Origin: Halichondria panicea
Lineage: Eukaryota; Porifera; Demospongiae; Suberitida; Halichondriidae
DNA: 64,000 nt
NCBI RefSeq assembly: GCF_963675165.1
Contig: NC_087377.1
Coordinates: 17,691,018-17,755,017 of the forward strand
Reading direction: 5' to 3'
Every line of letters starts with the position of its first letter. Position 1 is the first letter of the stretch. Below, piece after piece: positions 28,516-59,534 of the stretch. Position numbers and translations under genes: made by a program. The notes below the pieces were generated by a model that was given only the letters and a program-made list of their open reading frames with translations, did no database searches and had not been told where the DNA came from.

Positions 28516-31500
28516 TCACACAAACTGTGCATCTTCTGATAGGAAATCGTCGGGGCTAGGTCTGTAGTCACCGTTGTCCTGTGGGGAGGGTGTGTGCAGT
28601 GTGTGGGCGGGTGGTGAGGGTGTGAGAGGAGGTGTGTGCAGTGTGGGAGTGATATACAGCTATGGTGTTAGAATACAAAATAGGGCTGGGGAAATATTAA
28701 TCACGTAGTAATACTATTTTAAAGGTTTCCCCCTCTGTAACATCTGAACATGAAAATGAATCACTGCGTGTTTTCTATCATACAAATTCCTGTGAACACA
28801 TAACTACAAGCGTAGGGGAATGCCTCCAGCTATTTACACAGGGAAGCCAATCACATTTCAGCATCATTACACAGATTTCAACACTTCAGGCGTACATGGA
28901 ATTCCAAAGTTTGCCTAAGATGGTATACATACGAACAGAACATGAAAATCACTGTGTGTGTTCTATTAATGCTGTGTACACATGACTTCATGTTTAGCCT
29001 CTAGCTAATTACATGTGGCATACAGAGAACTTCATCATCATTATTCACAGGTTTCACAACGACCCACTTCAAGCGGATGGAATTCCAGACGTTGCCTATG
29101 ATCTAAGTCCACTATTGACAGTGACACATACCAGTGTTGACCAGATAATACTAGCCCCCCCTCTCCCATTACACTGTACCACACACAGACACACAAGCAG
29201 ACAACTCCCACTGTGTGAATATCATTGCTCAATTGGGTGTAACAGACCGTGAATGTCGCTAATTCACTTGGTGGAGACGCAACACAAACATTAGCACCTA
29301 CTCGTCCTACACACAGGGGGCACATAACACACACACGCCCACACACACTCACACAGGGGGCACATAACACACACGCCCACACAGCCACACAGTACGTAAA
29401 ACAAGGCCTCAAAGCCTTAGAACTTCTGTTGTAAGCATACTTAAGCATCTAAGAAGTGAGTATTCAGTCCATTAATTTTTTATTTGAGCTCTCTCACCCA
29501 CACCCACACACACACACACACACACACACACACACACACACACACACGCACACACACACACACACACACTTACTCGTCTGTAAGCAGGAGCACCCACAAA
29601 AGAGTCAGTGTCCGGAGGAGGCACTTTCATCATCTCAATGTCATCTCCTCCGAGTGGAGCTGGGGGTCAAAATAATAATAATAAATTATGGGTATGACTT
29701 GATCAGGTTACAACTTCAACTATCATGTAGCTAGCTGTGGGAAGCATTGAAAAGAATTATAATTTGTGTATATAAGTATTAAGTTGTGTGTAGGGTGGTC
29801 CCAGAGTTGTATAACTTACATAGACTAAATTATATCGAAATTAATGTAGAACTACATGTAAGAAATCGATTATTATGAGTCAGAGTATACAGTAACTATT
29901 CTTTCTTAGAAATAGTAAAATTAATACTAGGGAAAGTTTACATGTGGACTAGGGGACTAAGTTTTGTCAATTAGTCCGAGTATACAGAACTTATTTTAAT
30001 GGGAGACATTGCAAATGCACACTCACTGTTGTCTAAACAAACGCTTTAAAGGTTGTATAATTCCTGGCATACAATATACGTGGTCACCAAACTTAGACGC
30101 ACACACACACACACACACACACACACACACACACACACACACACACACACCCACCCACACACCCACACACACCCACACACACGTACCTCCGTGTGGGTAG
30201 TTGGGGGTGGGCTTATACATGGGAGGAGCAGCAGGTCGAAGTGCAGGCAGACTCTCATACTCCGGGCTAAATGCCTCGGGTTGTGCCACATCTTCCTCAT
30301 CACTGTCTCTGTCAACATTGCCACGTGGATCAGCACTATAGTCAGTGTATGATCTATACAGAGAAGGGGGGACGGATTACAATAATAATCGTAGTTTTCT
30401 CAAAACAAAACAGACTACAGTACTGCTACTATAATTATATCGGGTTTCGAATGCGACGTTCTTTTCGATTGCAATTTTTTTAAATCGCAATCGAAAGACA
30501 TGCAAAGAGTATATAAAATATGTACTCACTTTCCCCCTGAGACATTGTAGGGCGCCAGATCAACTGATTTGGAGCTCCTGGCACACATGTAAACGCACAC
30601 CAGGAGGAGAATGATCAATACAATCACTAAGATGAAACCAGCACCCCCGGCTGCTATACCGATGATCTCCGCCAGAGATAAGCCAGCTTCTACAGTGAGT
30701 ATACATAAACTATAGTAAGTCATTTTGTACATGCTATAATGGAGTACATAGAAGAAGTACCAATAACCAAAATTTGAATTGGCTAATTCGTAAGCTACCA
30801 ACATTTGAAGTATTGTATAGCGCGAAATTTTCGAGGTACTTATCCTCTGAAAGCATTCCGTTGAATAAATTTCGTGGGTTGAATGTGCTTATTGGAAACA
30901 CTCTCAGGCCACGCCTTCAGTTAAGCTAATTTTCGTGTAGGACTGCTAACCCACGAAAACAACAAAAATAAAAAATTTCGCAGCATACTTCATAACGTAC
31001 CTGGGCCTGCATTGACCTCCACACTGATATCCCTGGTAACTGTTCCGGCTGGATTAGTCCCCACACAAGTGTATGTACCAGCATTGTCTGACGTGGCACT
31101 GTCGATAGTTACTCGAGACAGAAACAGGTTGCCAGAAGGTGTAACAATACTGATACCCTCTCCTGAAGAGAGCATACTGCCACCTTTAAGCCACGTAATT
31201 GTCGGTGTGGGGATGCCCATGATCTCACAATCCACCTCCAGTTCAGCGCCTTCTATTGTGTTTGGTGATGAACTAAAGTTTGTGACGAACGGCTCGGCTG
31301 TAGAGGAGGGGGGGGGGAGGTAAATATGTGTGTGGGTGTGTGTGTGTGTGTGTGTGTGTGTGCATGTTTGTGTGTGCGTTTGTGTGTGTGTGCATGTGTG
31401 TGCATGTGTGTGTGTTCCCTATACATTGACTTACTGCAAAATACAAATGGCTCCTCGGCAAATTCCATAGATTCACTTGAACGTTCACATATGTATATTC

Positions 31501-59534: not shown

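Follow-up and report, generated by a model that had tools for sequence, protein, structure and literature searches.

Clustered Ig receptor genes of the sponge Halichondria panicea combine a shared ectodomain with two alternative leader/tail packages in a proposed paired-receptor-like organisation

The DNA analysed here, referred to as the window, is a stretch of 64,000 nucleotides of Halichondria panicea (NCBI RefSeq assembly GCF_963675165.1, contig NC_087377.1, hereafter C1; C1:17691018-17755017), and genome searches covered the 131.5 Mb assembly with its 39 contigs. The two Ig receptor genes reported by the first-pass annotation were found where it had placed them, gene A with its stop at 28516 and gene B with its stop at 59534 (Table 1). 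Both gene models are predictions, built manually on the basis of homology and of splice consensus; each gives a single open frame, with predicted proteins of 898 amino acids for A and 861 amino acids for B. The internal junctions from exon 1 onward are AG/GT throughout, and in both genes the leader exon, which encodes a hydrophobic segment, is directly followed by GT, with a donor in phase 1. In B the first ATG of the family has been lost and the next in-frame ATG gives a leader that starts with MTASGGVLVFLC.

Table 1. Predicted exons of the receptor genes and related features, numbered from the first nucleotide of the window
Feature	Position	Strand	Length (bp)	Content
A leader exon	36374..36437	-		MECRVLAFFIAIIGYSQAAYK; phase-1 donor; homologous leader in C
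A exon 1	33524..33847	-	324	Ig1
A exon 2	32859..33458	-	600	Ig2 and Ig3 by framework reading
A exon 3	32500..32784	-	285	Ig4
A exon 4	32023..32367	-	345	Ig5
A exon 5	31731..31936	-	206	Ig6, first half
A exon 6	31435..31534	-	100	Ig6, second half
A exon 7	31001..31297	-	297	Ig7
A exon 8	30530..30689	-	160	Transmembrane segment; A-type tail begins
A exon 9	30187..30353	-	167	Tail: YTDY, EYESL, PPMY
A exon 10	29574..29659	-	86	Tail
A exon 11	28516..28578	-	63	Tail end and stop
B-type leader exon, extra copy	47509..47605	+		Degenerate
B leader exon	47859..47931	+
B exon 1	49804..50127	+	324	Ig1
B exon 2	50183..50776	+	594	Ig2 and Ig3
B exon 3	57578..57868	+	291	Ig4
B exon 4	58009..58353	+	345	Ig5
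B exon 5	58403..58608	+	206	Ig6, first half
B exon 6	58667..58766	+	100	Ig6, second half
B exon 7	58826..59134	+	309	Ig7
B exon 8	59191..59534	+	344	Transmembrane segment and entire tail: VIYDTI, NAAYGL, EYETI, NPAYGL
Remnant of a further copy	59957..60578	+		Broken; parts of exon 6, exon 7 and the B-type tail
C exon 9	63706..63872	-		A-type tail
C exon 10	63150..63235	-
C exon 11	62108..62170	-		Stop

Comparison of the two genes detected four ectodomain exons of the same length, the other three differing by 6-12 bp. Equal sizes had been claimed before for exons of 318, 345, 206 and 100 bp; the last three were confirmed, and the first exon is indeed equal in both genes but measures 324 bp, not 318 bp. 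The identity between A and B of 77-95% per exon is in line with the proposed sharing of ectodomain sequence. Equally, the transmembrane and cytoplasmic parts proved to be unrelated in layout and in sequence, as had been noticed, with four exons in A and one exon of 344 bp in B, and the leader exons are unlike as well. By Pfam, five Ig stretches were recognized in A and five to six in B, with I-set and Ig_3 as the best models, whereas the Cys/Trp framework gives a count of seven domains, distributed over exons 1-7 as listed in Table 1, of which the second domain of exon 2 and the domain of exon 4 each lack one framework Cys. The Pfam scan of A and B (E up to 0.1) returned Ig-type models and a weak UL141 match in B, and it detected no tyrosine kinase domain in either protein.

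Exon-by-exon BLAST of the region revealed that A and B belong to a cluster of eleven gene copies, A to K, which spans 280 kb (C1:17.719-18.001 Mb). The ectodomain of about seven Ig domains is common to all copies, the identity between paralogues is 72-99% per exon, and a genome search with exon 2 (E up to 0.001) gave no match beyond this cluster. The frames of seven copies are intact (A, B, C, D, I, J and K), while F has a stop at the exon 7/8 junction, G has a stop in exon 1, and E and H carry frameshifts and stops; two isolated B-type tail exons on the plus strand were also found in the cluster. The leader and exons 1-8 of C lie outside the window and reach C1:17759059. B is the sole copy on the plus strand, the other ten being encoded on the minus strand. 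The description of A and B as an inverted pair is not supported in the sense of a functional unit: they are two of eleven copies, and since nine others share the orientation of A, the arrangement reflects an inversion of B. A unit with a bidirectional promoter between A and B was likewise rejected, as their leaders are separated by 11.4 kb that contain transposase-like ORFs and all remaining copies are oriented like A.

Several further elements were observed around these genes. The transposase-like ORFs between A and B (window 42963-43844) are IS1595/ISXO2-like by eye. Intron 2 of B contains three repeats at 2.1 kb spacing (window 52172-57500), the first two units of which include a GIY-YIG-like ORF recognized by eye (53622-54077 and 55717-56172), and a very long CA run is present at 51.7-52.2 kb of the window. 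Moreover, a leucine-rich-repeat piece, NLR-like by eye, occurs in two copies on the minus strand (27778-28083 and 61323-61664), directly downstream of A and C, as part of a duplicated 3' segment.

The eleven copies fall into two classes, in which the type of leader, located in all eleven, tracks the type of tail. The A package is present in two copies (A and C) and combines the leader MECRVLAFF or MKWTLAFL with a four-exon tyrosine/proline tail, whereas the B package is present in nine copies (B and D-K) and combines a leader of the MAVMTASGG type with a one-exon tail. The first-pass annotation had regarded an origin of the B tail exon in another gene as the finding that would overturn its proposal; this was rejected as unlikely, since nine of the eleven copies have a homologous exon at the same place behind their ectodomain exons, in a shorter form in D and F and in a disrupted form in E. 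VIYDTI, which matches the ITIM consensus, and NPAY had been pointed out in the tail of B and both are present there. VIYDTI occurs in six of the eight B-type tails that could be read, the stretch with the motif being absent from F and from the intact copy D, and NPAY occurs in all eight; the broken tail of E was excluded from this count, and the orphan tail at C1:17814 was unreadable in the frame used. The ITIM is a consensus match, and when the B tail was shuffled 20,000 times, 17.6% of the resulting sequences held at least one such match, so that the motif alone proves little. The long tyrosine/proline tail that had been noticed in A was recovered, with eight tyrosines, one YxxL (YESL) and one PPMY, and a scan of this tail for ITIM and ITAM found neither. 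Furthermore, the best transmembrane stretch of A, FILVIVLIILLLVCVYMCA, has no charged residue in its core; without an ITAM and without such a residue, the features of a canonical activating receptor or of its partner are absent.

With regard to conservation, the tails of A and C differ at 4 of 112 synonymous and at 0 of 359 nonsynonymous sites, a count that omits one codon, divided by the junction of exons 7 and 8; this codon does differ. For the B-type transmembrane and tail exon the dN/dS was 0.53 (five genes). In the genome the A-type tail is confined to A and C, bar one weak match of the transmembrane type; this 38% match, at C2:734643, was rejected as a relative of the A tail and judged to be transmembrane resemblance.

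There is strong support for recombination of ectodomain and tail blocks between the two classes of tail. The identity of A and C is 97.6-100% over exons 5-11 and 80% over exon 2, and their coding differences amount to 185 of 1539 sites in exons 1-4 versus 18 of 1079 sites in exons 5-11 (Fisher p 2.4e-26). The introns follow the same pattern in part: introns 1-3 are 67-84% identical and introns 4 and 5 are 96.5 and 100% identical, while introns 6-10 are at the level of 87-99.7%, so that the near-identity past the breakpoint at exons 4/5 is incomplete. In the tree of exons 2-4 (11 rows), A is placed with E, a B-type copy (support 98/98), and C with H/I (94/92), and forcing A and C together lowered the lnL by 66 (AU p 4e-10), whereas in the tree of exons 5-7 (10 rows, H left out) A and C are grouped with a support of 100/98. 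The conflict between the two trees indicates that the N-terminal and tail blocks differ in history. Either an ectodomain was placed onto a tail or a 3' half was placed under an ectodomain.

A gene with the order SH2-SH2-PTP was read exon by exon, unspliced, at C3:8403300-8406800, with the intact signature VHCSAGIGRTG; judged from this domain order, it is an SHP-type phosphatase and a candidate ITIM effector. Additionally, a weak match of the B tail on C10 (36%, E 6e-5) led to a second tandem cluster (C10:1636000-1679000), in which nine places carry homologous transmembrane/tail exons and polyproline and in which the exon-2 search (E up to 0.001) gave no match. An Ig exon adjoins the tail at one of these places, L042. 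Eight of the nine places were retrieved and six tails were read, L047 and L049 being left out: YET(I/T/L) and NPAYG are present in all six, NPAYGL in five, and the ITIM consensus in five, at the YETI tyrosine in two and solely at another tyrosine in three. This recurrence appears more telling than a single ITIM match.

Other phosphatase-like sequences were observed. PTP-like exons on the minus strand, recognized by eye at 13561-15448 of the window, have the signature VVSAMGGGRSG in place of HCSAGxGRTG and apparently lack the catalytic Cys. The genome contains at least 176 PTP-domain matches (150 of 361 candidates were scored), many of them at C4:330000-610000 and C4:1270000-2610000; in the former region they are interleaved with Ig matches, as if Ig receptor phosphatases had expanded there in tandem.

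On balance, we consider it somewhat probable that these genes constitute a demosponge multigene family of single-pass recognition receptors with about seven Ig domains and with an organisation that resembles paired immune receptors. In this reading, one common recognition ectodomain, the exons 1-4 of which have been recombined family-wide, is joined to two unrelated leader/transmembrane/tail packages. The genes would be transcribed and their products displayed at the cell surface, where B-type receptors would bind a ligand on another cell or on a microbe, and binding would result in phosphorylation of tail tyrosines. We propose that phosphorylated VIYDTI, and perhaps YETI too, would recruit an SHP-type SH2 phosphatase, that NPAY would serve internalisation or coupling to PTB proteins, and that the net B-type signal would be inhibitory or tuning, probably inhibitory. 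The A-type receptors (A and C) would respond to ligands of the same class via their different tyrosine/proline tail without ITIM, and the outputs of the two classes may be opposite.

In vertebrates, the paired receptors SIRP, PIR, KIR and LILR are encoded by clustered Ig genes with similar ectodomains and different transmembrane segments and tails, with an ITIM in one class and exchange of ectodomains between classes. All these traits are shared by the sponge genes, whereas their class without ITIM has a long tyrosine/proline tail and neither a charged transmembrane core nor an ITAM, and about seven I-set-like domains are present. The paired-receptor layout that had been proposed is accordingly retained with regard to the shared ectodomain, the two tails, the ITIM in the majority of readable B-type tails, the recombination and the SHP-type gene, but not with regard to ITAM and charged transmembrane residues; since the A class lacks these activating hallmarks, the family is best called paired-receptor-like, its membership being unproven. 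The label non-inhibitory that had been given to A would refer solely to the lack of an ITIM; an ITAM is lacking too.

The extent of ectodomain variability bears on two alternative explanations. Using the Nei-Gojobori method on nine of the eleven copies (E and H dropped; F and G, with one stop each, kept with stop codons skipped), mean dN/dS values for exons 1-7 were 0.48, 0.81, 0.63, 0.60, 0.42, 0.85 and 0.70, and dN exceeded dS in 1, 9, 3, 2, 0, 11 and 0 of 36 pairs, respectively. The dN/dS check suggested by the first-pass annotation thus speaks against blanket strong positive selection, which was discarded as all seven exons remained below 1 over all pairs, while 4 of 15 overlapping 30-codon windows of exon 2 exceeded 1 (1.12-1.66). 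Between A and C, exon 2 showed a dN of 0.237 and a dS of 0.172. For codons 140-172 of this exon, a stretch chosen post hoc, dN was 0.293 and dS 0.171 (bootstrap P 0.05); according to the Ig framework, these codons should hold the FG loop of Ig3. Moreover, 11 of the 19 columns with at least four residue types fall into exon 2, which makes up 204 of 727 codon columns.

This concentration of variability in exon 2, together with the clustering, the pseudogenes and the recombined ectodomains, would also be expected of a sponge locus for allorecognition, i.e., self/non-self histocompatibility, at which homophilic or allele-matched binding of ectodomains occurs and the tails decide on fusion or rejection. 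We regard this as unlikely. The first domain of Alr1 and Alr2 from Hydractinia is hypervariable, unlike exon 1 of the sponge genes, which encodes the outermost Ig domain and is conserved (dN/dS of 0.48). The Hydractinia allorecognition complex is described as clustered Ig-superfamily transmembrane genes with many pseudogenes (PMC11067881), of which candidate genes carry ITIM/hemITAM-type motifs (PMC12065747); these traits recur in the sponge, whereas the overall mutual identity of Alr proteins is low as compared to the 72-99% given above, and the phylum is another. Botryllus FcoR comprises clustered Ig receptors with ITIM/hemITAM, consisting of a V-type Ig, a sushi and two C2-type Ig domains, with motifs that change by allele or splicing (PMC12065747). 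Ig ectodomains, clustered genes and long tails that bear an ITIM or another YxxI/L/V motif are common to both, but the alternative tails of the sponge are on separate genes. In sponges, up-regulation of Ig-domain cell-surface proteins after grafting has been reported (PMC2248247). The Ig receptor tyrosine kinases of sponges (GCRTK type) are likewise Ig-domain cell-surface proteins there, whereas no kinase domain was detected in A and B, which combine about seven Ig domains with a tail of the ITIM type or of another type.

An equally doubtful explanation is that the genes are ordinary Ig adhesion paralogues in tandem, for which duplication, ectopic recombination and tail replacement would be neutral and the ITIM a chance or trafficking motif. 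The dN/dS values below 1, the four broken copies and the frequency of ITIM in shuffled tails are compatible with it, as are the solved structures nearest to the ectodomain, which among the best 60 of 126 matches are I-set domains of adhesion and muscle proteins, e.g., titin, DSCAM, Robo and contactins. Against it stand the A/C tail without amino-acid change past the exon 7/8 junction, the recurrence of the YET/NPAYG tail on a different contig, where it belongs to a second Ig cluster, and the strong support for recombination between two tail classes. That the mosaic genes are an artefact of collapsed or chimeric haplotypes is very improbable: a gap of 200 N at C1:17970099-17970298 is flanked by mirror-image copies of one B-type tail (17968059, plus; 17972395, minus), likely an assembly palindrome, and the cluster near G is mis-joined or unresolved, but A, B and C are more than 200 kb from this gap, the sequence in which A and C lie is continuous, their 3' flanks being shared while their 5' halves diverge, and seven of eleven copies have intact frames.

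According to a review, the proteins regarded as candidates for allorecognition in sponges, cnidarians and ascidians lack conservation, and ITIM/ITAM-type motifs are found in candidate receptors from cnidarians to mammals (PMC12065747). A sponge Ig family with ITIM-type and alternative tails and recombined ectodomains would carry this design one phylum deeper, and the gene structures suggest that sponges may already have the paired-receptor design known from immune cells. In titles and abstract beginnings of the open-access literature on sponge ITIM/Ig recognition receptors no such family was encountered, by which its unpublished status is not proven. For population, graft and SH2-binding work, concrete genes with exon coordinates are now named.

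Finally, two other kinds of loci were noticed in the assembly. Silicatein is a protein of siliceous sponges, and a genome-wide search with an approximate silicatein-like sequence gave seven full-length matches at 47-57%, one of them with the cathepsin-type active site CGGCWAF. The active-site exon matched at 68-80% at five places (C2:656-668 kb and C6:200-205 kb), where one second exon matched at 86% and further exons at 44-60%; three stretches showed silicatein-type active sites (CGASYAF, CGSSYAF and CGASYAF), in which Ser replaces the catalytic Cys. These silicatein-type genes point to a demosponge and do not support a cnidarian source. Furthermore, a short COX1-like fragment with two in-frame TGA codons at C1:5280527-5280718 (L034) is probably a nuclear copy of mitochondrial DNA.
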